The position numbers and the translations under genes were made by a program. The notes below the pieces were generated by a model that was not told where the DNA came from, ran no database searches, and was given only the letters and a program-made list of their open reading frames with translations. Positions 12,232-31,791 of a stretch of DNA of 48,173 nucleotides are shown here, one piece after another (position 1 is the first letter of the stretch; each line of letters starts with the position of its first letter). The DNA is from Bacilli bacterium (lineage in GTDB: Bacteria > Bacillota_I > Bacilli_A > RF39 > UBA660): NCBI GenBank assembly GCA_017940575.1, contig JAGAYJ010000003.1, positions 1 through 48,173 of the forward strand. Direction: 5' to 3'.

Positions 12232-12314
12232 AAATATTTATAATAGTTTTACAAAGTAATATAAGGCTTTACAATTGTTTACAAAAAATTTTTATGAAAA
12301 TATGTAAAAAATGC

Positions 12315-12343: not shown

Positions 12344-12349
12344 TGACTA

Positions 12350-12789: not shown

Positions 12790-12805
12790 TTAGGAGGAAT
12801 TATTT

Positions 12806-13546
12806 ATGAAAAAAGGAATCTTAGGTCGTAAATTAGGAATGACTCAAGTATTTACTAAATCTGGAAAATTAATTCCTGTAACTGTTGTTGAAGTTGAACC
12901 AAATGTTGTTACACAAATTAAAACAATCGAAAACGATGGTTATGAGGCAATTCAATTAGGATTTGATACAAAGAGAGAAAAGTTAGCGACTAAAGCTTCA
13001 GTTGGAATTACCAACAAAGCAAACACTACACCTAAGCGCTTCTTTAAAGAAATTAGAGGTGTAGATATTAACAATTATTCTTTAGGACAAGTTATCAGTG
13101 CTGATATCTTTGAAGAAGGAGAAGTTGTTGATGTTACTGGTACTACTAAAGGACATGGTTTCCAAGGTGTTATCAAAAGACATGGTCAATCAAGAGGACC
13201 TATGGGACATGGATCTCATTATCATAGAAGACCAGGTTCAATGGGAACAATGAGACCAATGCGTGTTTTCAAAGGTAAAAAATTACCAGGACACATGGGA
13301 ACACTTACTGTTACAATCCAAAACTTAGAAGTTGTTGCAGTAGATGTTGAAAATAATTGCATTTTAATCAAAGGTAATATACCTGGACCTAAAAAATCTT
13401 TAGTAATCATTAAATCAGCTGTTAAAAATGAAGGTAAAGTTAACGCTAAAGAAGAATTAAACACTTATAAAGTTGCTGAACCTGTAGTTGAAGCTGTAGA
13501 AGAAACTGTAGTAGAAAATACTGAAGCTGCAGTAGAAGAAAACTAG
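12806..13546 (+). CDS. rplC: 50S ribosomal protein L3 with acidic C-terminal tail
   Basis: Early-assembly 50S protein whose loop reaches the peptidyl-transferase centre. The family core is intact ([59 protein letters not shown]). The product has 246 residues against about 209 for typical L3: the last about 35 residues form a Val/Ala/Glu-rich acidic tail ([22 protein letters not shown]) with no counterpart in Bacillus. Low complexity suggests a disordered extension. SD TAGGAGGA precedes the ATG. Confidence 0.96.
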
Positions 13547-13557
13547 GAGGTAATTAA

Positions 13558-14181
13558 ATGTCAAAATTATCTGTATTAAATATTAAAGGTGAAAAGGTAA
13601 AAGATATTACTTTAAATGCTGAAGTTTTCGGAATTGTTCCAAACGATGCAGTATTATATGATGCAATTAGATTAATAAGAAATGCCTTAAGACAAGGTAC
13701 ACATGAGACTAAAACTCGTAGCGAAGTTAGTGGTGGTGGAATTAAACCATGGAGACAAAAAGGAACAGGTAGAGCTAGAGCAGGATCTACTAGAAGTCCA
13801 CTTTGGAGACACGGTGGTGTAGCATTCGGACCACATATGAGAAGCTACTCAATCAAAATGAATCGTAAAGAAAGAAGACTAGCTTTAAAATCAGCATTAG
13901 CTTATAAAGCAAGTGAAAACAATATTATCGTAATCGATTCTTTCAATATTGAAAATGCAAAAACTAGTGAAGCTAAAAAAGTATTAAATACATTAACAAG
14001 CGCTAAAAACATTTTAGTTGTAGTTGATGAATTAACTGAAAACATGATTTTAGCTACACGTAATTTACAAAACGTTATTTTACTAGAAGCTAGTGAAGTA
14101 AATACATATGATGTAGTTGCTGCTGATGTAGTTATTATGGAAGAAGCTGCTACTAAAAAAATAGAGGAGGTGCTTAAATAA
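13558..14181 (+). CDS. rplD: 50S ribosomal protein L4
   Basis: 207 residues. The exit-tunnel extension carries [40 protein letters not shown] and the following basic segment. In E. coli L4 is also the S10-operon regulator; no evidence bears on that here. AGGAGG precedes the ATG, and the stop codon overlaps the rplW start (TAATG). Confidence 0.97.
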
Positions 14182-14459
14182 TGAGTAACTATAGAGACAT
14201 AATTAAAGCGCCAATTATTACTGAAAAAAGCTCTGGTTTAGCTGCAAACAATGTTATTACATTCTCAGTTGATACAAGAGCTAATAAAACACAAATTAAA
14301 CAAGCTATTGAAAAAATCTTCAATGTTAAAGTTGAAAGTGTTAATACAGTAAACGTTAAACCTAAGAAAAAAAGAGTTGGACGTTACGTTGGAAAAACTA
14401 ATAAAGTTAAAAAAGCAATTGTTAAATTAAAAGAAGGAAGTTCAATCGAACTTAACTAA
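14181..14459 (+). CDS. rplW: 50S ribosomal protein L23
   Basis: 92-residue protein at the tunnel exit that docks trigger factor and SRP. It begins [20 protein letters not shown], and the [14 protein letters not shown] loop is conserved. Its start shares one base with the rplD stop, with GAGGAGGTG inside rplD, so the two are translationally coupled. Confidence 0.96.
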
Positions 14460-14475
14460 TTAGGAGAGGATAAAT

Positions 14476-15303
14476 ATGGCTATTAAGAAATTTAAACCAA
14501 TGACTAATGGTACTCGTGGAATGACTAAATTAGACAACTCTGAAATTACAAAATCAACTCCAGAAAAATCATTAGTTGTTACATTAAAGAAAAATGGTGG
14601 TCGTAATAACCAAGGTAAAATCACAGTTAGACACCATGGTGGTGGAGCAAAAAGAAAATACCGTATTATCGATTTCAAAAGAGATAAAGATGGTGTTGTT
14701 GGTACAGTTGCTTCAATAGAATACGATCCAAATAGAACAGCTAACATTGCTTTAATCCAATATGCTGATGGTGAAAAAAGATATATTATCGCTCCAAAAG
14801 GTTTAAAAGTTGGTAATAAAATTGAAAGTGGAGAAAATGCAGATATCAAAGTTGGTAATGCACTACCACTTAAAAACATACCAGAAGGAACAGTTGTTCA
14901 CAATATTGAATTAAAAGCAGGAAAAGGCGGACAAATGGCTCGTTCAGCTGGTTCAAGTGTTCAAATTTTAGGACATGAAGGAAAATATACATTACTTAGA
15001 CTTACAAGTGGTGAAGTTCGTAAAGTATTAAGCGAATGTAGAGCTACAATCGGTGAAGTTGGTAATGAAGACTATGAATTAGTTAACATAGGTAAAGCTG
15101 GTCGTAAAAGACATATGGGTATTAGACCTACAGTTCGTGGTTCAGTTATGAACCCTAACGATCACCCTCATGGTGGTGGTGAAGGTAGAGCACCAGTCGG
15201 ACGTAAAGGACCTGTTACTCCATGGGGTAAACCAGCGCTTGGATATAAAACACGTAAGAACAAAAAAGCTTCAGATAAGTTAATTGTTCGTCGTAGAAAA
15301 TAA
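14476..15303 (+). CDS. rplB: 50S ribosomal protein L2
   Basis: 275-residue universal protein near the peptidyl-transferase centre. Conserved blocks include [19 protein letters not shown], the central [12 protein letters not shown] and the C-terminal [19 protein letters not shown] containing the functionally important histidine. Full length, start confirmed by TAGGAGAGGA. Confidence 0.98.
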
Positions 15304-15321
15304 TGAGAGGATGATTTAAAA

Positions 15322-15594
15322 ATGGCTAGAAGTTTAAAGAAAAAACCTTTTGTTGATAGTTATCTAATCAAAAAAGTAGAAGCTTTAAAAGAATCTGGAA
15401 AAAATGAAGTTATTAAAACTTGGTCTCGCCGTTCAACAATTTATCCTATATTTGTCGGACATACATTTGCTGTTCATAATGGTAAAGAATTTATCCCAGT
15501 TTATGTAACAGAAGATATGGTAGGACATAAATTAGGAGAATTTTCTCTTACACGTAAATTTGGTGGACATGGCGACAACAAAATTAAGAAATAA
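15322..15594 (+). CDS. rpsS: 30S ribosomal protein S19
   Basis: 90-residue head protein with the typical [20 protein letters not shown] opening, the [22 protein letters not shown] signature region, and a [16 protein letters not shown] end. It follows rplB by 18 nt with GAGAGGATG upstream. Confidence 0.97.
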
Positions 15595-15619
15595 TTGATT
15601 GTCAGGAAGGAGGACTAAA

Positions 15620-15955
15620 ATGGAAGCAAAAGCGATTGCAAAAGGAGTTAGAATTGCACCTCGTAAAGCTCGTTTAGTTATAGATTTAATACGTGGTAAA
15701 AACGTAGTTGAAGCTGATAAAATTTTAAATAATTTAAATAAGGAAGCAGCTAGAATAAGTAAAAAAGTGTTAACTTCTGCTGTAGCAAATGCTGAAAACA
15801 ACTTAAGTTTAAATAAAGAAAACTTATATGTTAAAGCTTGCTATGTAAATGAAGGACAACCTTTTAAAAGAATGAAATTTGGTTCTCGTGGACACGTAGA
15901 TCCAATTAAGAGAAGAACAAGTCACATAACAGTAGTTGTAAGTGATGAAAAATAG
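15620..15955 (+). CDS. rplV: 50S ribosomal protein L22
   Basis: 111-residue tunnel-lining protein. The start is at MEAKAIAKGVRIAPRKARLV, preceded by GGAAGGAGGA; the upstream TTG at 15599 is rejected because it precedes that site. The C-terminal beta-hairpin contains PFKRMKFGSRGHVDPIKRRTSH, the macrolide-resistance loop region. Confidence 0.96.
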   Translation: MEAKAIAKGVRIAPRKARLVIDLIRGKNVVEADKILNNLNKEAARISKKVLTSAVANAENNLSLNKENLYVKACYVNEGQPFKRMKFGSRGHVDPIKRRTSHITVVVSDEK

Positions 15956-15970
15956 TAAGGAGGATAACTG

Positions 15971-16648
15971 ATGGGTCAAAAAGTTAGTCCAGTCGGACTT
16001 AGAATTGGTATCAATAAAACTTGGGAATCTAAATGGTATGCTGGAAACAAAGATTTCGCTAAATACCTTGAAAACGATAACAAAATCCGTAAGTTTTTAG
16101 AAAAGAAATTAAAAGACGCAGCAGTTTCAAGTATTTTAATTGAAAGAAATGCTAGTAAAACTGATATCATTATCAACACTGCTAAACCAGGAGTTATCAT
16201 TGGTCATGGTGGAGACGATATTGATAAACTTAAATTAGAATTATCTAAATTAGTTGGTGAAAATGTTCAAATTTCAATCATGGAAGTTAAAAACCCTGAT
16301 ATAGATGCAGCTTTAGTTGCTGAGAACATTGCTCATCAAATTGAAAACAGAGTTTCATTTAGAATTGCTCAAAAAAGAGCTATTAGAAACGCAATGAAAG
16401 CAGGAGCAAAAGGTATAAAAACATCTGTTTCTGGACGTCTTGGTGGAGCTGATATGGCTAGAACAGAAGGTTATACTGAAGGAAATACTCCACTTCATAC
16501 TTTAAGAGCTGATATTGATTACGCTCATAAAGAAGCTGATACTACTTATGGTAAAATCGGTGTAAAAGTATGGATTTACAAAGGAGAAATTCTTGCCTCA
16601 AAACAAAAAGGAGGTAATACAAATGGCACTAATACCAAAAAGAACTAA
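15971..16648 (+). CDS. rpsC: 30S ribosomal protein S3
   Basis: 225 residues with KH domain motif [15 protein letters not shown] and the C-terminal [22 protein letters not shown] at the mRNA entry site. The last residues ([14 protein letters not shown]) are polar and encoded by DNA that also carries the ribosome binding site and first 26 nt of rplP, a longer overlap than usual. Confidence 0.97.
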
Positions 16649-17048
16649 ATATAGAAGACCACATAAAATACGTTATGATGGTGTAGCTAAAGGTAATACA
16701 GAATTACACTTTGGTAGATATGGTTTACAAGCATGTGAAGGAGCTTGGATTACAACTAATCAAATCGAAGCTGCTCGTGTTGCTATGACTCGTTACATGA
16801 AACGTGGAGGAAAAGTTTGGATTAATATTTTCCCACACTTATCATTAACTAAAATACCTTTAGAGACTCGTATGGGTAAAGGTAAAGGTCAACCTGAAAA
16901 ATGGGTAGCAGTAGTTAAAAAAGGTAAAATTATGTTTGAAATAGATCAAGTAAGTGAAGAAATCGCAAGAGAAGCATTAAGACTTGCTGCACATAAATTA
17001 CCAATCAAATGTAAATTTGTTATGAAGGATGGTGAGGCTAATGACTAA
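16623..17048 (+). CDS. rplP: 50S ribosomal protein L16
   Basis: 141-residue protein at the A-site finger region. Starts [17 protein letters not shown] after AAAAGGAGGTAA; the earlier in-frame ATG at 16593 has no such site. [20 protein letters not shown] is the family signature. It overlaps rpsC by 26 nt and rpmC by 8 nt. Confidence 0.97.
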
Positions 17049-17244
17049 TAAGGAAATCAGAGAATTAACAACTGAAGAATTAAATAAAAAAATTGAAGAA
17101 TATAAAGAAGAATTATTTAACTTAAGATTTAGCCAAGCTACAGGTAATCTTGAAAAACCATCAAGAATTAACGAACTTAGAAAATTAGTTGCACGTATGA
17201 AAACAATTATTAGAGAACGTGAACTAAATGGGGAGGTTAAATAA
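17041..17244 (+). CDS. rpmC: 50S ribosomal protein L29
   Basis: 67-residue two-helix protein at the tunnel exit ([38 protein letters not shown]). The start ATG lies 4 nt after GGTGAGG within the end of rplP; an ATG at 17029 would put that site inside the coding frame. It ends in TAATG shared with rpsQ. Confidence 0.95.
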
Positions 17245-17501
17245 TGGAAAAAACTAACCACGAATTAGTTGGTAAAGTTGTAAGTGATAAATGTGATAAA
17301 ACAATTACTGTTTTAGTTGAAACTTACAAAAAAGACCCACTATATGGAAAAAGAGTTAAATATTCAAAAAAATACGCTGCTCATGACGAAAAAAATGAAG
17401 CTAAAGTTGGAGATAAGGTGCGTATAGTTGAAACTAGACCACTTTCTAAAAACAAACATTTCCGCTTAGTTGAAATCGTTGAAAAAGCGATAATCTTATA
17501 A
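17244..17501 (+). CDS. rpsQ: 30S ribosomal protein S17
   Basis: 85-residue OB-fold rRNA-binding protein with [17 protein letters not shown] and the [22 protein letters not shown] signature. One-base overlap with the rpmC stop. Confidence 0.97.
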
Positions 17502-17526
17502 TTGAAACTGGGAGGAGGATCAATAT

Positions 17527-17895
17527 ATGATTCAACAAGAAAGCCGTTTAAAAGTTGCTGACAACTCTGGTGCACGTGAAGTTAAAGTTATTCGTGTTCT
17601 TGGAGGAAGTAAAGTAAAATTCGGAAATATTGGTGATACTGTAGTAGTTACAGTAACAAAAGCTACTCCTAACGGAACAGTACCAAGAAGTAAAGTTTGT
17701 AAAGCTGTTGTTGTTAGAAGTAAAACTGGTTTAAGAAGAGAAGATGGATCTTATATTAAATTTGATGAGAACGCATGTGTAATTATCCGTGATGATAAGA
17801 GCCCAGTTGGAACTCGTATATTTGGACCAGTAGCACGTGAACTACGTGATAAAGATTTTATGAAGATTGTATCACTTGCTAAAGAAGTGTTATAA
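17527..17895 (+). CDS. rplN: 50S ribosomal protein L14
   Basis: 122 residues starting [19 protein letters not shown] with the conserved [22 protein letters not shown] region. L14 forms part of the intersubunit bridge and is the target of the RsfS silencing factor. Preceded by GGGAGGAGG. Confidence 0.98.
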
Positions 17896-17913
17896 ATCGA
17901 TTGGAGGAATAAC

Positions 17914-18222
17914 ATGAAATTAAAAACAGGAGATAAAGTAGTCGTTATTGCTGGTAAAGATAAAGGTAAAGAAGGAACAATTACTAAAACATTAAAAGAC
18001 TTAAATAAAGTTGTTGTTGAAGGTGTAAATGTTGCTAAAAAACATGTTAAACCAAACGGACAACAAGCTGGAAGCATTGTTGAAGTTGAAATGCCTATTC
18101 ATGCATCAAATGTTATGGTAGTAGATCCTAAAACTAAAAAAGGTACCAGAATAGGACACAATATAAACAAAGATGGTAAGAAAGTTAGAGTATCTAAAAA
18201 ATCTAACTCTAACCTTGATTAA
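17914..18222 (+). CDS. rplX: 50S ribosomal protein L24
   Basis: 102 residues with the KOW motif near the N-terminus ([20 protein letters not shown]), followed by [13 protein letters not shown] and the [13 protein letters not shown] block. Assembly initiator of the 50S subunit. TTGGAGGA precedes the ATG. Confidence 0.97.
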
Positions 18223-18239
18223 TTGGAAGGAGGGTATAT

Positions 18240-18779
18240 ATGAACCGCCTAAAAGCAAAATATAATGAGGAAATCGTACCAAGTTTAAAAGAAGAGTTTA
18301 AATATAAAAATATTATGGAAGTACCACGTTTAGAAAAAATCGTTGTTAACATGGGTGTTGGTGATGGTGCAGCTAATGCTAAATTCTTAGAAGCAGCAGT
18401 TGCTGACTTAGAAGCTATTACTGGACAAAAAGCAGTAGTTACTAAAGCTAAAAAAGCTATCGCTGGATTCAAAATCAGAGCTGGACAAGGTATTGGATGT
18501 AAAGTTACATTAAGAGGAGAAAATATGTATAACTTCCTAGATAAATTAGTAAGTATTACATTACCTCGTGTAAGAGACTTTAGAGGTATATCTCCAAAAG
18601 CTTTCGATGGTAAAGGAAACTATACTCTAGGATTAAATGAACAATTAATTTTCTCAGAAATCGTTTATGATAACGTTGTTAAAGTACGTGGAATGGATAT
18701 CGTTTTTGTTACAACAGCAAAAACAAACGAAGAAGGACTTGCTCTTTTAAAAGGTTTCGGTATGCCATTTAAAAAGTAA
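18240..18779 (+). CDS. rplE: 50S ribosomal protein L5
   Basis: 179-residue 5S rRNA-binding protein with [15 protein letters not shown] near residue 27, [25 protein letters not shown] and [14 protein letters not shown]. Normal length, SD GGAAGGAGGG. Confidence 0.98.
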
Positions 18780-18791
18780 TAGGAGGAAATT

Positions 18792-18977
18792 ATGGCTAAG
18801 AAAAGTATGATTGTTAAACAATCAAGAAAACAAAAATTTAAAGTACGTGAATATACTCGTTGTACAAGATGTGGTAGACCTCATTCAGTACTTAAAAAAT
18901 ATGGAATTTGCCGTATTTGTTTTAGAGAATTAGCTTACAAAGGACAAATTCCTGGTGTTACAAAATCAAGTTGGTAG
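18792..18977 (+). CDS. rpsN: 30S ribosomal protein S14, zinc-binding type Z
   Basis: 61-residue zinc form of S14. The four cysteines are C24, C27, C40 and C43 ([20 protein letters not shown]). This is the sole S14 seen in the window; zinc-independent paralogues, where they exist, are usually elsewhere. TAGGAGGA precedes the ATG. Confidence 0.97.
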
Positions 18978-18997
18978 AATGAAGGGAGGAAAAATTC

Positions 18998-19390
18998 ATG
19001 ACAGATCCAATTGCAGATATGCTTACAAGAATTCGTAATGCAAATCAAATGCGATATAAAGAAGTTGAAGTACCCGCTTCAAAAATTAAATTAGAAATTG
19101 CCAGAATATTAAAAGAAGAAGGATTTATCGCTGACTATAAAGTTAACAAAGAATCTGTTCAAGATATGATGGTTTTAAACTTAAAATATGGTGAAAATAA
19201 AGAACGTGTAATCACTGGACTTAAAAGAATTTCTAAACCAGGATTACGTGTATACGCTAAAAGTAATGAAATTCCAAAAGTATTAAATGGACTTGGAATT
19301 GCAATTGTTTCAACATCTAAAGGAATCATGACAGACAAAGAAGCTAGAAAAGAATCATTAGGTGGAGAAGTTTTAGCATACATTTGGTAG
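18998..19390 (+). CDS. rpsH: 30S ribosomal protein S8
   Basis: 130-residue central-domain organiser starting [18 protein letters not shown] and ending with the [20 protein letters not shown] signature. In E. coli S8 represses the spc operon; no target structure was identified here. SD AGGGAGGA. Confidence 0.97.
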
Positions 19391-19403
19391 AAAGGAAGAT
19401 TGT

Positions 19404-19934
19404 ATGAGCCGTATAGGTAATAGAATATTAACAATACCTGAAAACGTTACAGTTACTGTTGATGGATCAAAAGTTACAGTTAAAGGACCTAAAGGTGAAC
19501 TTTCTACTGTAGTTAATGAAAACATTACTGTATCAGTAAAAGAAAATACTATTGAAATTACAAGAACAAACGATAATTTCAAAAATTTCCATGGTACAGC
19601 TAATGCTAATATCAACAATATGTTAATTGGTGTAACTAAAGGTTATGAAAAACAATTAGAGTGTGTAGGAGTTGGATATAGATTCCAAGTAGCTGGTAAT
19701 AAAATTACTGTTAATGCTGGTTATTCACATCCTGTTGTTGTTGAAGTTCCTGCTGGTTTAACTGTAGAATCTCCAAGTAATACAGAACTAAACATTAAAG
19801 GAATTGATAAATGTCTTGTTGGTGAATTTGCTGCAAATATAAGAAAAATAAGACAACCTGAACCATATAAAGGAAAAGGTATACGTTATAAAGATGAACA
19901 TATCCGTCGTAAAGAAGGAAAGAAAGCAGCATAA
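19404..19934 (+). CDS. rplF: 50S ribosomal protein L6
   Basis: 176 residues with the duplicated L6 fold: MSRIGNRILTIPENVTVTV and, in the second repeat, the RQPEPYKGKGIRYKDEHIRRKEGKK signature (split here for length). Located by the sarcin-ricin region of the 50S subunit. Confidence 0.97.
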   Translation: MSRIGNRILTIPENVTVTVDGSKVTVKGPKGELSTVVNENITVSVKENTIEITRTNDNFKNFHGTANANINNMLIGVTKGYEKQLECVGVGYRFQVAGNKITVNAGYSHPVVVEVPAGLTVESPSNTELNIKGIDKCLVGEFAANIRKIRQPEPYKGKGIRYKDEHIRRKEGKKAA

Positions 19935-19960
19935 TGTAATTTAGTAAAGGAGAGTTAAAA

Positions 19961-20323
19961 ATGATTAAAAAAGAGTCAAGAAATGTAGCTCGTAAAGCTA
20001 GACATGCTCGTGTAAGATCTAAATTAAATGGTACAGCTATTTGTCCAAGATTAAACGTATTTAGATCAAACTCTAATATTTTTGCTCAAATTATCGATGA
20101 TGAAAAAGGAATTACATTAGTAAGTGCTTCATCTATAGATAAAGAGTTAAAATTAGAAAACGGTGGAAATAAAGAAGCCGCTACTAAAGTTGGAGAATTA
20201 ATCGCAAAAAGAGCTAAAGAAGCTAATATAAGTAAAGTCGTTTTCGATAGAGGTGGATACCTATATCATGGACGTGTAGAGGCATTAGCAGAAGCTGCAC
20301 GTGAAAACGGATTAGAATTCTAA
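19961..20323 (+). CDS. rplR: 50S ribosomal protein L18
   Basis: 120-residue 5S rRNA-binding partner of L5, with the basic N-terminus [35 protein letters not shown], and the end [29 protein letters not shown] precedes the ATG. Confidence 0.97.
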
Positions 20324-20336
20324 TAGGAGGGTAAAT

Positions 20337-20840
20337 ATGGAAAATAGAAAAAGAACACCACGCCCAAAACAATATGAAGAACAAGTAATCAATATTGGTA
20401 GAGTTACAAAAGTAACTAAAGGTGGTCGTCATTTCCGTTTTTCCGCAACAGTAGTTGTTGGAGATAGAAAAGGTAAAGTTGGTCTAGGTACTGGTAAAGC
20501 AAACGAAGTACCAGATGCAATTAAAAAAGCTGTTTCAGCTGCAACTAAAAACATTGTTAATGTTAAATTAGTTGATGATAGAACAATTTCCCATGAAGCA
20601 ATCGGTGTTAGAAGCGCTAGTAGAGTTTTACTTAAACCTGCTGTTAAAGGTACCGGAGTTAAAGCTGGTGGACCAGTCAGAGCAGTACTAGAACTTGCTG
20701 GTGTTAAAGATATCTTATCTAAATCACTTGGATCAAATACAAAAATTAACATGGCTTATGCTACACTTGAAGCATTAAGATCACAAAAAACAATTGAAGA
20801 AGTTGCAAAACTTCGTGGTAAGAAAGTTGAGGAGATTTAA
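20337..20840 (+). CDS. rpsE: 30S ribosomal protein S5
   Basis: 167 residues with the dsRBD-like core [40 protein letters not shown], and the [22 protein letters not shown] region. Fidelity protein of the decoding centre. Its stop shares a base with the rplO start, so no rpmD (L30) gene separates them as it does in many bacteria. Confidence 0.97.
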
Positions 20841-21283
20841 TGAACTTAAGTACATTATATCCATCAGAAGGTTCTACTAAAAGACGTAAAAGACTTGGAT
20901 GTGGACCAGGTTCTGGTAAAGGTAAAACTTGTGGTAAAGGACATAAAGGACAAAATTCTAGATCAGGTGGAGGAAAAGGTCCAGTTTTTGAAGGTGGACA
21001 ATTACCACTTTATAGAAGACTTCCTAAAAGAGGTTTCTCTAACGCAAGATTTAAAACAACTTTTGCTACATTAAATTTAAGTGATTTAAATAATTTTGAA
21101 GATGGTGCAGTTGTTACACCAGAATTATTAAAAGATATGGGAATATTAAAAAATCAATTAGATGGCGTTAAAATCTTAGGAAACGGAAAATTAGAAAAGA
21201 AATTAACTGTTAAAGCTAATAAATTTTCTAAATTAGCTAAAGAAGAAATAGAAAAAATGGGTGGAAAAGCAGAGGTGATTTAA
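20840..21283 (+). CDS. rplO: 50S ribosomal protein L15
   Basis: 147-residue late-assembly protein starting [20 protein letters not shown], with the [23 protein letters not shown] glycine-rich arm (in two halves here) and a C-terminal globular domain. The ATG overlaps the rpsE stop (TAATG) with GAGGAG upstream, indicating coupled translation. Confidence 0.97.
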
Positions 21284-21284
21284 A

Positions 21285-22559
21285 ATGTTTGCAACTGTTA
21301 AGCAAATATTTAATCCCGCAAATAAAGATTTAAGAAAGAAGATTTACTTCACATTCTTATGTTTATTTGTATTTAAATTAGGTACTACAATCGTAGTTCC
21401 AGGAATAGACAAAGAAAGTTTAGGAACAGGTAACTTAGGTATCTTAGAGCTTATGAATGTCATGGGCGGAGGTGCCTTAGAAAAATTCTCAATTTTTGCA
21501 TTAGGTGTTACACCTTATATCACTGCTCAAATAGTTATTCAACTACTTACTATGGATATAATTCCATATTTAGCAGAGTTATCTAAACAAGGTGGAACAG
21601 GTAGAGCAAAATTAAATCAAATTACTAGATATGTTGGTATAGCACTTGCATTTATACAAGGATATATGTTCTCATTTGCATTCGTTCAAAACGGAACTGC
21701 AATTGATTACTTAACATTTGCATTATTCTTAACAGCAGGTACTGCTCTTCTTTTATGGATAGGAGATCAAATAACTGCTAAAGGAATTGGAAATGGTATA
21801 TCATTAATAATCATGGCAGGTATTATAGCATCTCTTCCAAGTAGTTTCTTAACTGCATGGCAAAGTTTCGTTGTATCAGGTTCAACTCAAGTTGTAGCTT
21901 TAGGTATAACTAAATTTATCCTATTTGTTATTATTTATGTAGCAATTATATTAGGAGTTGTTTATGTTGAAAGTGCTGAGAGAAGAGTTCCAATTCAATA
22001 TGCTAACAAATCTAATGCCACTGCTTCTAAACAAAGTTATATTCCATTTAAATTAAATTCGTCTGGGGTAATTCCTGTAATATTTGCATCAGCACTTATT
22101 TCAGTACCTGGATTATTATCTAATTTTATAAAAAATGATTCATTCACTTTATTCGTTAATAAATATTTAACTACTGAGACAGTTACAGGATTTATAGTTT
22201 ATATAGCTTGTATCTTCTTATTCGCATACTTCTATACATTCTTACAATTAAAACCAGCTGAATTATCAGAGAATTTAGGTAAGAATGGTGGATTTATACC
22301 AGGTATTAGACCAGGGGAAGAAACAACAAACTATATTTCTAAAGTTTTAAAGAGAATTACAACAGTTGGTGCTTTAGCATTATCAATTATTGCAGCACTT
22401 CCAATTATTTTTGGAGCTGTAACTGGACTTCCATCAAGCGTTAGAGTTGGTGGTACTGGTTTATTAATCGTTGTTGGAGTTGCACTTGAAACTTATAGAC
22501 AAATTGAATCAGAGTTAATAACTCGTAAATATCAAAGAGGAATAAGAGGTAGAAGATAA
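21285..22559 (+). CDS. secY: protein translocase subunit SecY
   Basis: 424-residue channel-forming subunit of the Sec translocon with ten predicted membrane helices. Recognisable blocks are GGGALEKFSIFALGVTPYI in helix 2, the QITAKGIGNGISLII segment, and the cytosolic C5 region with NLGKNGGFIPGIRPG and RKYQRGIRGRR at the end. It works with SecA, encoded near the right end of the window. One base separates it from rplO, and its stop overlaps adk. Confidence 0.97.
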   Translation: MFATVKQIFNPANKDLRKKIYFTFLCLFVFKLGTTIVVPGIDKESLGTGNLGILELMNVMGGGALEKFSIFALGVTPYITAQIVIQLLTMDIIPYLAELSKQGGTGRAKLNQITRYVGIALAFIQGYMFSFAFVQNGTAIDYLTFALFLTAGTALLLWIGDQITAKGIGNGISLIIMAGIIASLPSSFLTAWQSFVVSGSTQVVALGITKFILFVIIYVAIILGVVYVESAERRVPIQYANKSNATASKQSYIPFKLNSSGVIPVIFASALISVPGLLSNFIKNDSFTLFVNKYLTTETVTGFIVYIACIFLFAYFYTFLQLKPAELSENLGKNGGFIPGIRPGEETTNYISKVLKRITTVGALALSIIAALPIIFGAVTGLPSSVRVGGTGLLIVVGVALETYRQIESELITRKYQRGIRGRR

Positions 22560-23182
22560 TGAATTTAATTTTAATTGCTCCTCCAGCTGCTGGTAAAGGA
22601 ACACAATCAGAATTTATTTGTAATCACTACAACTTAAATCATTTATCTACTGGTGATTTACTTCGTGAAGTTGCTAGTAAAGATGATCCTAAGAGTTTAG
22701 AGATTAAAGAATTAATGAATAAAGGTATGTTAATTAGTGATGAAATCATTTTAGATTTAATAGAGAATAAAATAAAAGAAAACGAAGGTTTCGTCTTTGA
22801 CGGATTCCCTAGAACTTTAAATCAAGCAGTTAGTTTTGATGAGTTACTTAAAAAACTTAACAAAAAAATAGATAAAGTTATCTATTTAACTGTTGATAAA
22901 GAAGTAGCATCACAACGTATTGCAGGTAGATACGTATGTCCTTCTTGTGGTTTAGTTTATAACTTTAAACCAAATGAAGAAATCACTCCATGTAAATGTG
23001 GTGAAGCTTTAATCAAAAGAAAAGATGACAATGTTGAAACTTTTGAAAAACGTTATGATGTTTATATGAATGAGACATTTCCAATTATAGATTTCTATAG
23101 AGAAAAAGGACTTATATCTGAAGTTGATAGTTCTAAAACACCAACTGAAGTCTTTGATGATATTAAAGCTGTTTTAGATTAA
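22559..23182 (+). CDS. adk: adenylate kinase with variant P-loop and zinc lid
   Basis: Interconverts AMP+ATP and 2 ADP. The 207-residue product has FDGFPRTLNQA and the lid with a four-cysteine zinc site (CPSCG, then CKCG). The P-loop reads APPAAGKGTQ where most family members have GPPGAGKGTQ: two glycines are replaced by alanine while the Lys-Gly-Thr end is kept. Position after secY is standard. The ATG overlaps the secY stop; AGAGGT upstream serves as ribosome binding site. I still expect an active enzyme. Confidence 0.95.
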   Translation: MNLILIAPPAAGKGTQSEFICNHYNLNHLSTGDLLREVASKDDPKSLEIKELMNKGMLISDEIILDLIENKIKENEGFVFDGFPRTLNQAVSFDELLKKLNKKIDKVIYLTVDKEVASQRIAGRYVCPSCGLVYNFKPNEEITPCKCGEALIKRKDDNVETFEKRYDVYMNETFPIIDFYREKGLISEVDSSKTPTEVFDDIKAVLD

Positions 23183-23183
23183 T

Positions 23184-23930
23184 ATGATAAGTATAAAATC
23201 TGAAAGAGAAATTGAACTTTTAAAAGTAGCTGGCGAGATAGTGGGTAAAACTCATCATTATCTTGAGCCATTTATCAAGCCAGGCATAACTACTAAAGAG
23301 TTAGATAGATTAGCTGAGGAATATATATTAAGTCAAGGTTGTACTCCATCATTTAAAGGTTTATATGGTTTTCCAGGATCTATTTGCATTTCAATTAATG
23401 AAGAAGTAGTACATGGAATTCCAGGTAATAGAAAACTTAAAAATGGTGATATAGTAACACTTGATATAGGAGCTTGTTATAAAGGTTATCATGGAGATTC
23501 TGCTTGGACTTATGCCGTTGGTAAAATAAGCCCTAAAAAGGAAGCTTTAATGAAACAAACTGAAGAAGCATTGTTTGCTGGTCTATCTGTTATCAAAGAT
23601 GGATGTCATGTAGGAGATATTGGACATGCTGTTAGTGAGTGTGCTCATAAATATCACTTAGGTGTTGTTGAGGAACTAGTAGGTCATGGAGTTGGTAGTC
23701 AAGTTCATGAAGAACCAGATGTTCCTAATTATGGAAAGAAAGGTACAGGTCCAGTTTTAAAAGAAGGTATGGTAATAGCTGTTGAACCAATGCTTAATAT
23801 GGGTACTAAAGAAGTATTTATGTTAGATGATGATTGGACAATAGTTACTGGAGATGATCTTCCATCTGCTCACTTTGAACATACTGTTTTAGTTGAGAAG
23901 GATGGATATACAATATTAACAAAGAGGTGA
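23184..23930 (+). CDS. map: methionine aminopeptidase, type I
   Basis: Removes N-terminal methionine from new proteins. The 248-residue product shows the metal ligands: [12 protein letters not shown] (two aspartates about 11 apart), the [12 protein letters not shown] histidine, EPM and the C-terminal FEHTVLV glutamate. No clear ribosome binding site is visible before the ATG, which follows the adk stop by one base, so translation probably depends on coupling to adk. The gene ends in TGA, the only clear TGA stop among the core genes and evidence that TGA is not a tryptophan codon here. Confidence 0.96.
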
Positions 23931-23934
23931 TTAT

Positions 23935-24201
23935 ATGCCAAAGAAGTTGAAATCACAAAAAGTAAATAATACTGAGGAAGTTAAAAAGAACAAAAATGCT
24001 ATCGAAGTAGACGGAAAAGTACTAGATGTTCTACCAGGTGGTCAATTTAGAGTTGAACTTCCAAATAAGTATGTAGTTGTGGCTCATGTATCAGGTAAGA
24101 TAAGACAAAATAACATTCGTATTTTACCAGGTGACACAGTTACAATGGAATTATCAGAATACGATTTAACAAAAGGTCGTATAATCTGGAGAAAAATATA
24201 G
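23935..24201 (+). CDS. infA: translation initiation factor IF-1 with N-terminal extension
   Basis: OB-fold factor that occupies the 30S A site. The core is canonical ([52 protein letters not shown]). At 88 residues it is about 16 longer than usual because of a Lys-rich N-terminus ([20 protein letters not shown]). The start is firm: GAGGTG lies 6 nt upstream of the ATG, and no other in-frame start exists before the core. Confidence 0.95.
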
Positions 24202-24280
24202 TACTATATGCACTCACATTTCTATTAAAATCCAAAAAATGCATTTTAATAGGCTATATAGTATTTACTAATATGTGAGT
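24202..24280 (+). promoter_or_regulatory. interleaved-stem RNA element before rpmJ
   Basis: Three perfect complementary pairs lie in the 95-nt infA-rpmJ gap. Stem A pairs TACTATAT (24202-24209) with ATATAGTA (24256-24263). Stem B pairs ACTCACAT (24212-24219) with ATGTGAGT (24273-24280). Stem C pairs CTATTAAAAT (24222-24231) with ATTTTAATAG (24243-24252). The order A-B-C-C'-A'-B' means A and B cross, giving either a pseudoknot or two exclusive folds. B' ends about 5 nt before the rpmJ AGGAGGG, so the fold could control ribosome access. Confidence 0.6.
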
Positions 24281-24296
24281 AATTAGGAGGGATAAT

Positions 24297-24410
24297 ATGA
24301 AAGTAAAAGCATCAGTTAAACCAAGATGCCCTAAATGTAAGGTTATCAAACGTAAAGGCAAAATTGAGGTTATTTGTGAAAACCCTAAACATAAACAAAG
24401 ACAAGGTTAA
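24297..24410 (+). CDS. rpmJ: 50S ribosomal protein L36, zinc type
   Basis: 37-residue zinc-ribbon protein with ligands C11, C14, C27 and H32 (CPKC ... CENPKH). The sequence is fully canonical. Preceded by AGGAGGG. It sits between infA and rpsM as in most bacteria, downstream of the interleaved-stem element. Confidence 0.97.
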
Positions 24411-24424
24411 TATAGGAGGTTAAT

Positions 24425-24790
24425 ATGGCACGTATTAAAGGTGTAGATATACCAGATAATAAAAGAATCGTAATTTCTATGACTTATATCTATGGTATTG
24501 GTAGAAGCTTATCTGAAAAAATATTAGCTGACGCTAAAATAGATGTAAATAGAAGAACTAAAGATTTATCAAATGACGAATTAAACTTAATTCGTGAACA
24601 ATTAGATAAATACACTATCGAAGGTGATTTAAGACGTGAAGTTAATATGAATATTAAAACTAAAATGGAAATCAATTCATATGAAGGAACTCGTCATAAA
24701 AAAGGATTACCTGTTAGAGGACAAAGAACAAATAGAAACGCACGTACTCGTAAGGGTAAAGGAAAAACAGTCGCTAATAAGAAAAAATAA
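24425..24790 (+). CDS. rpsM: 30S ribosomal protein S13
   Basis: 121-residue head protein starting [18 protein letters not shown], with [15 protein letters not shown] and the C-terminal [14 protein letters not shown] tail that contacts tRNA. ATAGGAGG precedes the ATG. Confidence 0.97.
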
Positions 24791-24814
24791 GGTTAAATAA
24801 AGGAGGTTATTAGT

Positions 24815-25198
24815 ATGGCTTATAAAGCAAGAAAACGTAAAGTTAAAAAGAATGTACCAGAAGGTAGAGCTTATATCCATTCAACTTTCAATAACACTAT
24901 TGTAACTATTAGTGATACTGAAGGTAATGCAATAAGCTGGGCTTCTGCAGGAACTTTAGGATTTAAAGGTAGTAAAAAATCAACTCCATTTGCTGCAGGT
25001 ATGTCAGCTGAAGCTGCAGGAAAAGCGGCTTTCGACATGGGAATGAGAAAAGTAGAAGTATATGTTAAAGGACTAGGATCTGGTCGTGAAACTGCAATTA
25101 GATCTCTACAAACTGCTGGTCTTGAAATATCATCAATCACTGATATAACACCTGTACCACATAATGGATGCCGTCCACCAAAACGTCCACGTGGATAA
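24815..25198 (+). CDS. rpsK: 30S ribosomal protein S11
   Basis: 127 residues with [38 protein letters not shown] and the end [26 protein letters not shown] precedes the ATG. There is no rpsD next to it, as in other Firmicutes. Confidence 0.97.
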
Positions 25199-25218
25199 TA
25201 GAAAAGGAGTGTGTTAAA

Positions 25219-26169
25219 GTGTTAAACTTTGAAAAACCAATTTACAAAATTACAGATTATGTAGAAAATAATAACTATGGTAAATTTGAACTAGAACCAC
25301 TTGAAAGAGGTTTTGGTATTACTTTAGGAAATGCACTTAGAAGAGTTATGTTATCAAGCATGCCAGGAAGCGCTATCGTTGCTGTTAAAATTGATGGTGT
25401 AATGCACGAATTCCAAACTATGGAAGGAGTTGTTGAAGATGTTACAACTATCATTTTAAACTTAAAAAATGTTGTTGTTAAAAACAATACTGATGGTGTA
25501 GTAACTGCTAAACTTTCTGTTAATGAAGAAAGAGTTGTTACAGCTGCTGATATCGTTACAACTGACGATGTTGAAATTGTTAATCCAGATCAAGTAATTG
25601 CTACTTTATCTAAAGGTGGAAAACTTGATATGGAATTATTAATTGCTAATGGACGTGGTTATGTTCCATCAACAGAAAACAAAAAATTTGTTGAAGACGC
25701 TAAAGTAGGATTTATTCCAATTGACGCTTTATATTCTCCAATTGAAAGAATTAGTTGTGATGTTGAGGATGCACGTGTTGGACAAGATTCAACTTATGAT
25801 AAACTTATTGTTAATGTTTACACAAATGGATCAATTCGCCCTGAAGAAGCTATGGCTTTAGGTGCTAAAATCTTAATAGAACATTTAAACATTATTACTA
25901 ATTTAAGTGAAATAGCTGATACTACAGGAGTAATGAATGCTAAACAAGAAGATTCAAAAATCAAAAAATTAGAAACTTCTATTGATGATTTAGACTTCTC
26001 TGTTAGAGCTTATAACTGTTTAAAAAGAGCAGGAATCAATACTCTTGGAGATTTAACTGAAAAAACTGAATTAGAAATGATGAAGATTAGAAATTTAGGT
26101 AAAAAATCTTTAAAAGAAGTTATTGATAAAATTAAAGATATGGGACTTAAATTCAGAGATGAAGATTAA
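25219..26169 (+). CDS. rpoA: RNA polymerase subunit alpha
   Basis: 316-residue subunit that dimerises to nucleate polymerase assembly. The N-terminal domain carries [28 protein letters not shown] (split by length); the C-terminal domain (from about residue 250) carries [19 protein letters not shown], the UP-element and activator-contacting module. Start: GTG at 25219, nine nt after AAAGGAG; upstream readings lie inside rpsK. Full length. Confidence 0.97.
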
Positions 26170-26180
26170 GGAGGTATAGT

Positions 26181-26537
26181 ATGGCTTATAGAAAATTAGG
26201 TCGTGATAATAAACACAGAAGAAGTATGTTAGCTAACCTTACTAGACAACTTATCATGAATGAAAAAATTGAAACTACTGAAACTAGAGCTAAAGAAGCA
26301 CGTAAGTTCATTGATAAAATGATTACTTATGGTAAAAAAGGTGATTTAGTTTCAAGAAGAAAAGCATTAGCTTTCATGCAAAATGATAAAGTTGCTACTA
26401 AAAAAGTTTTTGATGACTTAGCAAAACGTTTTGCTAACAGAAATGGTGGATATACAAGAATTCTTAAATTAGATGAACGTAGAGGCGATGACGCTTTAAT
26501 GGTTATCTTAGAATTAGTTGAAGAGGATGCTAAATAA
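26181..26537 (+). CDS. rplQ: 50S ribosomal protein L17
   Basis: 118 residues starting [20 protein letters not shown], with [24 protein letters not shown] at the end in two conserved halves. Last gene of the operon; the terminator hairpin includes its stop codon. Confidence 0.97.
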
Positions 26538-26593: not shown

Positions 26594-26624
26594 AAATACT
26601 ATTATTATGAAAAAGGGGAATATT

Positions 26625-27143
26625 ATGAACGAATTAGATATTAAAAAACTTGTTGTCGAAGATGAAAATACATTCTTTAGTGATAAGAAGAATCAAAATT
26701 GTTTTTTATTAAAAGCTCTTACTAGAAAAGAATTACGTGATGAATATTATTCTAATATTGATCTTAATTATTATACTATGGATAATTATAATCGCTTGAA
26801 AAAATATTATTACAAGGTTTCTGATCAAATAGATAGATTATCTTATATTAATCAAAAACTTATGAATCATGGAATTATTTTAGATATATTAGTAAATCAA
26901 ATAGATTCTCTAGAAATTGATTGTATGATTAAAAAAGAAAAAATAAATGAGTTTAATAATAAATTATCACATATGTTATATTTAGGCATAATAAGTGAAA
27001 AAGAAGCCTTAAACAGAGGATTTACTCATAAACATATAAGAAGATTAAATCGCATGTCACAAAATCAAATAGAAATGGCATATGATTCATATTTAAATGG
27101 CTATGAGTTAGATAAGGAACATGTTAAAATAAAAAGATATTAA
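26625..27143 (+). CDS. hypothetical helical protein, 172 residues
   Basis: I do not recognise this protein. It is charged, rich in Asn, Lys, Tyr and Ile, predicted mostly helical with possible coiled coil between residues 55 and 115, and has no membrane segment or signal peptide. The start is placed at the ATG after AAAGGGG; the ATG at 26607 lies upstream of that site. It has its own promoter and terminator. Codon and base usage match the neighbouring accessory genes rather than the ribosomal genes. Confidence 0.65.
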   Translation: MNELDIKKLVVEDENTFFSDKKNQNCFLLKALTRKELRDEYYSNIDLNYYTMDNYNRLKKYYYKVSDQIDRLSYINQKLMNHGIILDILVNQIDSLEIDCMIKKEKINEFNNKLSHMLYLGIISEKEALNRGFTHKHIRRLNRMSQNQIEMAYDSYLNGYELDKEHVKIKRY

Positions 27144-27224: not shown

Positions 27225-27974
27225 ATGAAGGCACTTGTAACAGGAGCATCTAGTGGAATTGGTAAGGATATAGCTATTGCTTTATCTGAAATGGGATATG
27301 ATTTAATACTAGTTGCTAGAAGAAAAACAAAACTTGAACAATTAAAAAAACAATTACCTGGTAAAACTACAACTATTGTTATGGATTTATCTTCAACTGC
27401 TAATTGTATGAAACTATATGACAAAGTTAAAAAAGAAGATATTGAAGTTGTTGTTAATAATGCAGGATTTGGTTTATTTGGTGAATTTGATAAAACTAAT
27501 TTAGATAAAGAACTTGATATGATTGATACAAATATTAAAGCAGTGCATATCTTAACTAAACTTTTCTTAAAAGATTTCAAAGAAAAAGACTCAGGATATA
27601 TTTTAAATGTAGCTTCATCTGCAGGTTTCTTATCTGGTCCATTAATGGCAACTTATTACGCTACTAAGGGATATGTTTTAAAGCTAACTGAAGCTATATA
27701 CGAAGAGCTTAGAAGAGATGGTTCAAATGTATATATTGGTGCTTTATGTCCAGGACCTGTTGATACTGAATTTAATAAAGTCGCTAAAGTTAAATTTAGT
27801 ATAAAACCAATGACTAGTGAAAAAGTTGCTGAATATGCAGTTGATCAAATGTTAAAGAAAAAAACAATAATTATTCCTGGATTTAAAACAAAATTTGTTA
27901 GATTATCAGGATTACTTCCTAGGAAATTACTTTTAAGACTTAATTATAATGTTCAAAAAAAGAAGGATGATTAA
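27225..27974 (+). CDS. short-chain dehydrogenase/reductase
   Basis: 249-residue classical SDR with Rossmann nucleotide-binding motif TGASSGIG (6-13), VVNNAGFG, the catalytic serine in NVASSAG, the YxxxK pair in YYATKG, and PGPVDTEF. The arginines after beta-strand 2 (LVARRKTKL) suggest NADP(H) preference. The YqjQ/DltE-like subgroup fits best; the substrate cannot be told. Preceded by GGTGATA; its stop abuts the next ATG with no gap, so it is in one operon with the prepilin-like gene. Confidence 0.85.
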   Translation: MKALVTGASSGIGKDIAIALSEMGYDLILVARRKTKLEQLKKQLPGKTTTIVMDLSSTANCMKLYDKVKKEDIEVVVNNAGFGLFGEFDKTNLDKELDMIDTNIKAVHILTKLFLKDFKEKDSGYILNVASSAGFLSGPLMATYYATKGYVLKLTEAIYEELRRDGSNVYIGALCPGPVDTEFNKVAKVKFSIKPMTSEKVAEYAVDQMLKKKTIIIPGFKTKFVRLSGLLPRKLLLRLNYNVQKKKDD

Positions 27975-28589
27975 ATGAATAATAAAGGTTTAACTCTTGT
28001 TGAGGTAATAGCTACGTTAGTTGTATTATCTATAGTTGCACTTATAGTAACTCCTAATATAGCAGTTAGTATTAAAGATTATAAAAAAAGAACTTTAGAA
28101 TCACAATTAAGTGCTGTTGAAGGAGCAACAAAAAACTGGGTTGCTGATAATATTGATAAAGTAAATTGTACAGATGATGATAGTAGTGCACTTATGGTTG
28201 ATATTAATAAACTTCAAACAGATGCATATTTGGATGAAAAGTTGAAAAATCCAAATGGTGGTTATTTAGATAGTACTGATACATTTGGTTTAGTATCTTG
28301 TAAAACTGTTGTTGATGAAACTAATAACTTAGAGACCAATTATAAATATACATATGGTGCTTTTTTAAGTATTAATGATTATTTAGAACATATGGCTATT
28401 GAATATGTCAAAGATAATAATAATATAGATGCAACTGTAACAACATCTACTCTTCAAAATGAAAAATATGTTTATAGAACAATAAAGAATCTTGATGGTA
28501 TAAGTGTTTCTATTCCATCAAAAACTATAAGCGTTAAAGTAACTACTACAAATGACGGTAAATATAATTATGAAACTAAGATGAATTAA
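27975..28589 (+). CDS. orphan type IV prepilin-like protein
   Basis: 204 residues beginning MNNKGLTLVEVIATLVVLS: a short basic leader, a glycine-leucine cleavage site for prepilin peptidase after residue 5, Glu at +5, and a hydrophobic helix of about 20 residues, all hallmarks of class III signal peptides. The remainder is polar with two cysteines near 60 and 104 and no recognised domain. No prepilin peptidase, pilus ATPase or membrane platform is in the window. AAGGATGA lies before the ATG. It could be a pseudopilin of a Com-like system encoded elsewhere. Confidence 0.75.
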   Translation: MNNKGLTLVEVIATLVVLSIVALIVTPNIAVSIKDYKKRTLESQLSAVEGATKNWVADNIDKVNCTDDDSSALMVDINKLQTDAYLDEKLKNPNGGYLDSTDTFGLVSCKTVVDETNNLETNYKYTYGAFLSINDYLEHMAIEYVKDNNNIDATVTTSTLQNEKYVYRTIKNLDGISVSIPSKTISVKVTTTNDGKYNYETKMN

Positions 28590-28668: not shown

Positions 28669-29271
28669 ATGAGTAAAAATAATAAAATAAATATTATCCC
28701 TAATTCGTATACTGCTATACTATGCTCAAACAATGTTGATAAGATTAAACTTGGAAATGCTATAAAGAATAAAAATGATTTGATTATTACAACAAATGCT
28801 AAGGATAATAGTGAAGAATTTGATAAAAAAATAGTGAATTTGCTTAAAATAAATAGTTTAATGTTATGTGATTTTAATACACTAAGTATTGGTGAGAGAC
28901 AAATGGTTCAAATATCTAAAGCATTAAGTTATAATTTTGATAGATTAATAGTTGTTGATGCTATTTCAAATGTCTCAACTATCAATAAAGAAAAAATATT
29001 AAAATACTTAAAAAAATATAATAATAAAACAATTATATATATTACAAGTAATAAAGAAGATATAGTATATTTTGAAAACTTTATATTATATGATAATAAG
29101 GTAATTCTAAATGATAAACTATCTAATGTGCTTGATAAGGAAAAAGAATTTAAACTAGCAGGATTTGATCTTCCTTTTATGCCACTTCTTTCTCTTAAAT
29201 TAAAATATTATAATTTACTTGATAGGCCAATTATTTCAATGGATAGGATGGTTGATAAATTATGGAAATAA
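28669..29271 (+). CDS. degenerate ECF transporter ATPase, EcfA1-like, without Walker A
   Basis: 200 residues at the conserved ecfA1 position between the alpha operon and truA. The ABC fold is recognisable from the signature LSIGERQ (72-78) and the Walker B strand LIVVDAIS (93-100), but the catalytic Glu after Asp97 is Ala. The Walker A loop reads CSNNVDKIKL (19-28): the lysine aligns but the glycines and Ser/Thr are gone. The switch histidine is also missing (ITSNKED). It is about 80 residues shorter than normal EcfA. It overlaps the next gene by 10 nt. Family assignment rests on motifs and synteny; transport is unlikely by itself. Confidence 0.7.
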   Translation: MSKNNKINIIPNSYTAILCSNNVDKIKLGNAIKNKNDLIITTNAKDNSEEFDKKIVNLLKINSLMLCDFNTLSIGERQMVQISKALSYNFDRLIVVDAISNVSTINKEKILKYLKKYNNKTIIYITSNKEDIVYFENFILYDNKVILNDKLSNVLDKEKEFKLAGFDLPFMPLLSLKLKYYNLLDRPIISMDRMVDKLWK

Positions 29272-30047
29272 TAATTAAGGATTTATCATATACATACTCA
29301 AAGGTTAACTATCAAGAAAAAAAAGTATTTAACAAATTGAATCTTAATATAAAAGAAAATATAAATTGTATTATAGGAATAAACGGTTGTGGAAAAACAA
29401 CACTTCTTGATTTAATTGCAGGTGAATTAAAGAGTGATGCAATAACAATTCCAAAAAGGGTTAAAATCGGATATGTTAAAGGAGAACCATTATTTGTAAC
29501 GGATACAGTTAGGGAAGAGTTAATATATTCAATGATGGAACATAATTATAAAATAAGCGAAAAAAGAATAATAGATGTACTTCTTATGGTTGGAATAGAT
29601 GATAGTTTAGTTGATTCAAAAATATCATCTTTATCGCTTTCTGATAAACGCCTTTTATCACTTGCAACAGCACTTATATATAATCCCAATTTAATACTAA
29701 TTGATAATTTTACAGAAGAGTTAGATGACTTTAATAAAAATAAAATAATTAAATTAATTAAAATGCTTAAAACACGTTTTAATAAGACGTTTATAATTGC
29801 CTCAAATGACCTAGAATTTGTTCATAAAGTTGCTGATGAAGTATTTGTAATAAGTAATAAAAAAGTAGCTTTAAAAGGCAATAAATATGATATCTTTAAA
29901 AAAGAAGAACAATTAAAAAAATATGGACTTAGTGTTCCAAATATTATTAAATTTGAAAATTTGACTTTAAAAAAGAAAAATATTAGACTGGGCTATAGAG
30001 ATGAGATTAACGATTTGATAAAAGATATATATAGACATTCTTATTAA
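29262..30047 (+). CDS. ECF transporter ATPase, EcfA2-like, catalytic Glu replaced
   Basis: 261-residue ABC ATPase with intact Walker A GINGCGKTT (39-47). The Q-loop is lost (GYVKGEP), the signature is degenerate (LSLSDKR, 124-130), the Walker B glutamate is Asn149 in LILIDNFT, and the H-loop histidine is replaced in IIASNDLE (Asn182). The gene lies where ecfA2 normally does, but ecfT, which usually follows, is absent and truA comes next. In a dimer with the upstream protein, one composite ATP site (this Walker A plus the other signature) could still bind ATP without ordinary hydrolysis. Confidence 0.75.
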   Translation: MEIIIKDLSYTYSKVNYQEKKVFNKLNLNIKENINCIIGINGCGKTTLLDLIAGELKSDAITIPKRVKIGYVKGEPLFVTDTVREELIYSMMEHNYKISEKRIIDVLLMVGIDDSLVDSKISSLSLSDKRLLSLATALIYNPNLILIDNFTEELDDFNKNKIIKLIKMLKTRFNKTFIIASNDLEFVHKVADEVFVISNKKVALKGNKYDIFKKEEQLKKYGLSVPNIIKFENLTLKKKNIRLGYRDEINDLIKDIYRHSY

Positions 30048-30056
30048 GGAGGAGTT

Positions 30057-30931: not shown

Positions 30932-31366
30932 ATGAAAGATACATATATGCAAAGAAAAGAAGATGTAGTGCGTAATTGGTATGTAGTTGACGCTGAAGGA
31001 CAAAACTTAGGTCGTGTAGCTGCTCAAGTATCTATGGTACTTATGGGTAAAAACAAACCAACTTATACACCACATATCGATTGTGGAGATAACGTTATTG
31101 TTATCAATGCTTCAAAAGTTAACTTAACTGGTAAAAAATTAGATAATAAAATCTATTACAACCATTCAGGTTATACTGGAGGATTAAGAGAAAGAACTGC
31201 TCGCGAAATGAAAGAAAACTATCCAGTTGAAATGATTGAAAGAGCTGTTAAAGGAATGCTTCCAAAAGGAAGACTTGGACGTCAAATGTATAAAAAATTA
31301 TTCGTTTATGAAAATGGAGATCATCCACACATGGCTCAAAAGCCTGTTGAGATGAAATTAAAATAG
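30932..31366 (+). CDS. rplM: 50S ribosomal protein L13
   Basis: 144 residues starting [20 protein letters not shown] and containing [31 protein letters not shown] and [13 protein letters not shown]. The start follows AGAAAGGGAAA; the upstream in-frame ATG at 30848 would place the leader pseudoknot inside the coding region. Cotranscribed with rpsI. Confidence 0.96.
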
Positions 31367-31377
31367 GAGGTAACTAG

Positions 31378-31791
31378 ATGGCTAATAAAGTATTTACTGG
31401 TACAGGTAGAAGAAAATCTTCAGTTGCTCAAGTTAGAATGGTTCCTGGTAAAGGAAACATTACAGTTAATGGTAGAGATGTAAGAGACTTCTTCCCATAT
31501 GAAACTAATGTAATGGATTTAAAACAACCATTAGTTGCTACAAATAACGAAGAAACATTTGATATTGAAGTTAAAGTTAATGGTGGAGGATTCACTGGAC
31601 AAACTGGTGCTATTAGATTAGGTATCACTAGAGCATTACTTGAATATGATGCTGCTAATGAAGGAAAAGAAGATAGCTACAGAACAATCTTAAAAAGAGC
31701 TGGTTTCATTACAAGAGATTCAAGAATGAAAGAACGTAAAAAACCAGGACTTAAAGCAGCTCGTAGAGCTCCACAATTCTCAAAAAGATAA
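31378..31791 (+). CDS. rpsI: 30S ribosomal protein S9
   Basis: 137-residue protein whose C-terminal arm reaches the P-site tRNA; it ends in the canonical [37 protein letters not shown] is the family N-terminus. TAGGAGG precedes the ATG. The last codons, stop and terminator form the left copy of a 47-bp direct repeat that recurs at 32912-32958, marking an insertion immediately downstream. Confidence 0.97.

Follow-up and report, generated by a model that had tools for sequence, protein, structure and literature searches.

EcfA1-EcfA2 ATPase pairs that outlast EcfT in gut Bacilli

What can the two ATPases of an ECF transporter be doing once their membrane partners are gone? The question is raised by two overlapping genes, derived from EcfA1 and EcfA2 (A1 and A2 in what follows), in a 48,173-nt contig of a Bacilli bacterium (JAGAYJ010000003.1, GenBank assembly GCA_017940575.1). 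The whole of this stretch is the window (G000:C26); its genome is a 1.02 Mb draft MAG, 89% complete. To our knowledge, ECF ATPases are known only as transporter motors. No description of such an EcfT-free ECF ATPase pair was found in a search of open-access papers.

Locus and motif state of the pair

The genes around the pair are, in order, rpoA, rplQ, a 178-aa open reading frame (ORF), an SDR gene, a prepilin-like gene, A1, A2, truA, rplM and rpsI, with housekeeping names assigned from the sequences. EcfA1 and EcfA2 homologues are thus encoded side by side, as in ECF group II. The best match of A1 is EcfA1 (TIGR04520; 46 bits, second half only, profile positions 120-269) and that of A2 is EcfA2 (TIGR04521; 120 bits, nearly full length), both far below the NCBIfam equivalog cut-offs of 315 and 330 bits, respectively. 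The likeness to the group II module (EcfA1-EcfA2-EcfT plus S component) lies in sequence homology and in the shared order rplQ-...-ecfA1-ecfA2-truA. The A1 tail has the pattern PF(M/V)...V..LW common to solved EcfA1 (8bmr, 5d3m), and the nearest solved EcfA2 to A2 are 4mki and 4huq. Unlike that module, the window pair is without EcfT, S component, A1 P-loop, catalytic Glu, H-loop His and Q-loop acid. Matches of A2 to defence proteins (PADLOC mad3 and others) look generic for ABC proteins and were dropped. Features are collected in Table 1.

Table 1. Features of the A1-A2 locus (window coordinates)
Feature	Coordinates	Strand	Remarks
EcfA1-derived ORF (A1), 200 aa	28669..29271	+	N-terminal P-loop part shortened/lost; helical part, Walker-B region and C-terminal tail kept
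A1 P-loop block remnant CSNNVDKIK, residues 19-27	28723..28749	+	From alignment
A1 signature LSIGERQ, residues 72-78	28882..28902	+	Half that would complete the ATP site of A2
A1 Walker-B Asp97, then Ala98 where catalytic Glu expected	28957..28962	+	
A1 C-terminal tail KEKEF..LPFM..LSLKLKYYNL..MVDKLWK	29137..29268	+	Kept in nearly all relatives
A1 stop/A2 start overlap, 10 nt, ATGGAAATAA	29262..29271	+	
EcfA2-derived ORF (A2), 261 aa	29262..30047	+	Full length
A2 P-loop GINGCGKTT, residues 39-47	29376..29402	+	Intact
A2 signature LSLSDKR, residues 124-130	29631..29651	+	Weakened
A2 Walker-B Asp148 and Asn149	29703..29708	+	Catalytic Glu lost
A2 Asn182 at H-loop His position	29805..29807	+	
A2 C-terminal tail P226 ... 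GYRDEINDLIKDIYR	29937..30035	+	Kept in nearly all relatives
ecfT slot (about 730 bp in relatives)	30048..30056	.	9-base gap only; truA starts at 30057

Intact copies of A1 have GPNGSGKST where the window protein has its P-loop remnant, so Walker A is lost from A1; that of A2 is intact. Neither subunit retains the catalytic Glu or the H-loop His, and the Q-loop acid is also gone. By sequence one composite site remains, formed by G39-T47 and D148 of A2 with S73 of A1. Judged by motifs, this site, from the A2 P-loop and the A1 signature, appears complete for ATP binding and the opposite site lost. The first-pass annotation had anticipated most of this: an A1 without Walker A but with a near-normal signature, an A2 with Walker A, replacement of both catalytic glutamates (Ala98 and Asn149), and EcfT missing from the ecfA1-ecfA2-ecfT position. 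Its description of the A2 signature as degenerate needs softening: because the Ser remains, we call that signature weakened, not lost.

The same substitutions, which the annotation had proposed to look for in relatives, are present in the sister species RGIG4963 (G002, roe deer rumen). Its A1 reads CTNNVDIIK, LSIGEKQ and D97-A98, and its A2 GANGTGKTT, LSLFDKK, D148-N149 and N182; the shared motif state is therefore not an assembly error. In the window genome, at 89% completeness, no EcfT was found by Pfam CbiQ or by a profile including eroded EcfT, and no S component by PF12822 or PF07456, the two S families covered. An EcfT elsewhere in the genome beside normal EcfA copies, which would have made the pair simple relics, was likewise not seen.

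Selection on the pair

We report dN/dS by NG86, since YN00 and ML estimates were saturated or unusable; the dS values are therefore minima and the dN/dS values maxima. Between window and sister the ratio is 0.15 for A2 (75% identity), 0.30 for A1 (61%) and 0.21 for truA (79%). Neither A1 nor A2 contains an in-frame stop, where neutral simulation at such distances gives a mean of 8-16, and none was found in RGIG4963 either. The pair shows no sign of a pseudogene (stops, frameshifts or dN/dS near 1). Together with a motif state fixed in the sister, these results bear out the earlier argument from open frames against random decay. At the same time both genes evolve faster than most in the window, A1 being among the fastest; most others are slower (dN 0.03-0.10 against the sister, outside the ribosomal block). 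A1 and A2 are thus under constraint and yet change quickly. A separate EcfT-less genus (G081, G169, G170), independent of the window clade, gave dN/dS of 0.15-0.24 for A1, 0.12-0.21 for A2 and 0.12-0.16 for truA, with an invariant A1 P-loop (GPNNCGKT) and almost no indels.

Against the same sister, the ribosomal-protein block and its neighbours (ssb, secY, adk, map, rpoA; 10665-26537 and 30935-31791) have a dS of 0.05-0.16, while genes flanking it on both sides have about 0.3-1.2. The low dS may reflect either strong codon constraint or recent recombination between species.

EcfT loss and residue conservation across the family

Genome size, habitat and class suggest that the family is an RF39-type lineage of gut Bacilli with small genomes. 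We used the EcfT family, A2 of the window and two families of S components to search 145 of its genomes (144 genera), and examined 103 loci, that of the sister included. EcfT is present in 51, eroded in 10, absent in 40 and cut by contig ends in two. Where it is absent, A2 runs almost straight into truA. The eroded forms at these 10 loci have roughly 210-240 aa; over all relatives that carry them, eroded EcfT proteins have about 190-240 aa and 4-6 hydrophobic segments. Such membrane proteins, of about 190-230 aa, stand beside degenerate ATPases at L020, L083, L089, L090, L108, L114, L123, L160 and L162. Since Pfam CbiQ alone overlooks diverged EcfT (e.g. in G004 and G007), a wider profile was built and searched. 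With this profile, which includes eroded EcfT, no EcfT was found elsewhere in the genome for 39 of the 40 EcfT-less genomes. The exception, G150, has a separate ECF module: this second locus (L133, G150:C13) has an S component and ATPase of its own, and its EcfT-like match is interrupted by a stop. Of the 51 EcfT-positive genomes, 30 have the S component PF07456, as against none of the other 52 (Fisher 1e-12); EcfT-positive genomes without it already have weaker motifs.

At almost every locus the end of A1 runs into the start of A2, with truA close by; A2 and truA are between -7 and more than 130 nt apart, and EcfT can sit between them. EcfT-less loci across some 40 genera have open frames. 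Still smaller pairs were recovered through the A2 tail in 13 more genomes, the shrunken forms having 149-172 aa (A1) and 181-205 aa (A2). G009, G113 and G070 keep the pair after losing both P-loops (A1 149-157 aa), which means that some lineages do without ATP binding; the two A1 tested, from G009 and G070, can still be matched to EcfA1 over its second half. Minimal pairs at L163, L168 and L170 (A1 149-157 aa, A2 181-185 aa, no P-loop) have conserved tails and truA still adjacent. Roughly a fifth of sampled genomes have no pair, and it is therefore dispensable.

A TruA tree calls for 11 changes in the EcfT-positive state (11-12 over bootstraps), at least six of these changes being forced by supported branches, and many pairs are retained after EcfT loss. 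G115, from a sister genus, joins the window and its sister species with strong support (100/92). That genome, also EcfT-less, has kept the A1 P-loop (GPNKSGKTT) and the A2 signature (MSSSEIR) and has lost the A1 signature (FNKEDIS); its A2 P-loop is absent. Sister EcfT-less lineages have thus kept opposite sites, G115 having the arrangement of the family majority and the window clade its mirror image. Phylogenetic pair tests of motif loss with EcfT loss favour this direction but have little power, with six supported pairs and a median p of 0.125 at best. From present-day states, without ancestral reconstruction, we infer that the S component went first, then active-site motifs, that EcfT then shrank and went, and that the ATPases shrank last.

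Residues were compared over alignments of distant proteins from draft genomes. Among 52 pairs with EcfT absent or eroded, the A1 P-loop Gly is kept in 49, the A1 Walker-B Asp in 50 and the A2 signature Ser in 51, the Ser of A1's own signature in only 26. The A1 catalytic Glu is found in two of them (D in 30, N in 17) versus 23 of 30 intact modules, and the A1 H-loop His drops from 23 of 30 intact modules to nearly none. What EcfT-less pairs conserve most are the C-terminal tails (Pro, Leu, Tyr and Trp of A1; Pro, Lys and Tyr of A2), alongside the A1 P-loop Gly-Lys, the A1 Walker-B Asp and the A2 signature Ser. In these alignments the pattern reads as ATP binding kept and hydrolysis lost.

The annotation had also proposed that the two subunits decay in a complementary way. 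In 40 S-less genomes with the A1 P-loop only, the A2 signature is better kept than that of A1 in 29 (Wilcoxon 1e-6, phylogeny ignored), under a split by lost P-loop that was chosen after seeing the data; over all EcfT-less genomes unsplit, P-loop and signature differences show no significant correlation (Spearman 0.12, p 0.39). The one-site pattern thus recurs in the family and is mirrored between sisters, but the rule is broken by an EcfT-positive clade (G034, G083, G095, G102) in which A1 has lost its P-loop and not kept its signature. A clade comprising L018, L092, L096, L099 and L101 keeps a diverged EcfT with an A1 that has neither P-loop nor good signature, and has no PF07456; this is a different route of module decay.

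Interpretation, alternatives and neighbouring genes

The loss of S component and EcfT, the motif states, the purifying selection and the recurrence can be read from the genomes themselves, and suggest a new, non-transport use of the surviving pair. Given the loss of EcfT, S component, Q-loop acid and catalytic residues, we regard a soluble heterodimer with one slowly hydrolysed ATP as the simplest model. A1 and A2, the ATPase pair left over from an ECF transporter after loss of the S component and EcfT, would still associate by way of the conserved C-terminal tails and would hold one ATP between the P-loop and Walker B of A2 and the signature of A1. With Asn149 in place of the general base Glu, and Asn182 in place of the H-loop His, very slow hydrolysis is to be expected. 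Recruited to a function with no need of EcfT, the dimer might then act on some partner as an ATP-stabilised or ATP-switched cytosolic clamp or scaffold, not as a transport motor; the pairing, the ATP binding and the slow hydrolysis are inferred, and the clamp or scaffold role is our guess. We think it rather probable that the window pair is such an EcfT-independent, poorly hydrolysing clamp or scaffold. The EcfT coupling helices end in arginines that contact aspartates of EcfAA' in a solved ECF complex (PMC4820897); we assume that the lost Q-loop acid is one of these aspartates. The same paper reports that EcfAA' closes fully on AMP-PNP in the absence of membrane subunits. AlphaFold2 models of the single chains, from two-sequence alignments (window and one relative), had pLDDT values of 36 and 41, too low for use; what speaks for the dimer is the conservation of tails and site.

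The broader proposal, to which we give even chances, is that many independent conversions in a large family of reduced-genome gut Bacilli turned ECF pairs into ATP-binding heterodimers that have one site, hydrolyse poorly, need no EcfT and share a non-transport role. The kept site would be interchangeable, as the window clade and its sister genus illustrate, and some lineages would later have been pared down to nucleotide-free mini-subunits keeping the C-terminal tails. Since three lineages have lost both P-loops, the constant requirement may be for the tails and the dimer core and not for ATP.

Slow erosion after loss of the S component and EcfT, with the apparent constraint left over from selection on folding or toxicity, would fit the graded series from intact modules through eroded and absent EcfT to shrunken pairs and none, as well as the speed of A1. 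We find it unlikely, given dN/dS of 0.12-0.30 with zero stops in two independent EcfT-less groups and open frames in so many genera, and since aimless erosion would not leave the tails and one composite site as the most conserved parts. Somewhat less likely still is a pair that remains a transport motor, EcfT having been replaced by an unrecognised membrane partner. The eroded EcfT of some relatives does show that extreme divergence of this subunit occurs, and MAGs are incomplete; against it stand the negative result of the eroded-EcfT profile in 39 of 40 EcfT-less genomes, the absent S component and the loss of Q-loop acid, catalytic Glu and His.

The frame overlap and the nearness of truA could also mean that the pair is kept only as a spacer or for translational coupling in truA expression, its protein sequence hardly mattering. 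This is very improbable, because conservation at the protein level extends far from the junctions (A1 P-loop, A2 signature) and because the A2-truA distance varies and EcfT may intervene.

The EcfT-independent heterodimer that we favour has partial counterparts. Heterodimeric ABC proteins with one degenerate site, such as TAP and type I exporters, are likewise asymmetric, with one site lost and one retained. There, however, the ATPases are parts of transmembrane transporters and ATP is hydrolysed at the retained site, whereas the retained site of the window pair also lacks its catalytic Glu, and the genome searches found no transmembrane partner. ABCE1, ABC-F and UvrA are likewise ABC ATPases without transmembrane domains; these are ancient families that keep their catalytic residues, unlike the present pair, which derives repeatedly from a transporter motor. 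A motor outliving its transporter many times, with the same residues kept and lost, offers a natural experiment on the use of an ABC dimer without hydrolysis or a membrane partner. If such genes are annotated as ATPases of vitamin transport, many uncultured gut Bacilli will be credited with a vitamin uptake that they do not have.

Three genes upstream of the pair deserve mention. The SDR gene (27225-27974) precedes A1 in most family loci checked, EcfT present or absent, and its product has 97% amino acid identity to the sister, far above A1 and A2; it is a possible functional neighbour. The 178-aa ORF after rplQ (26607-27143) is the region's fastest gene (42% identity to the sister) and has no NCBIfam match. 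Between SDR and A1, a protein with a prepilin-type N-methylation motif (27975-28589) is encoded, which occupies the same place in some relatives (L003, L006) and is absent in others.
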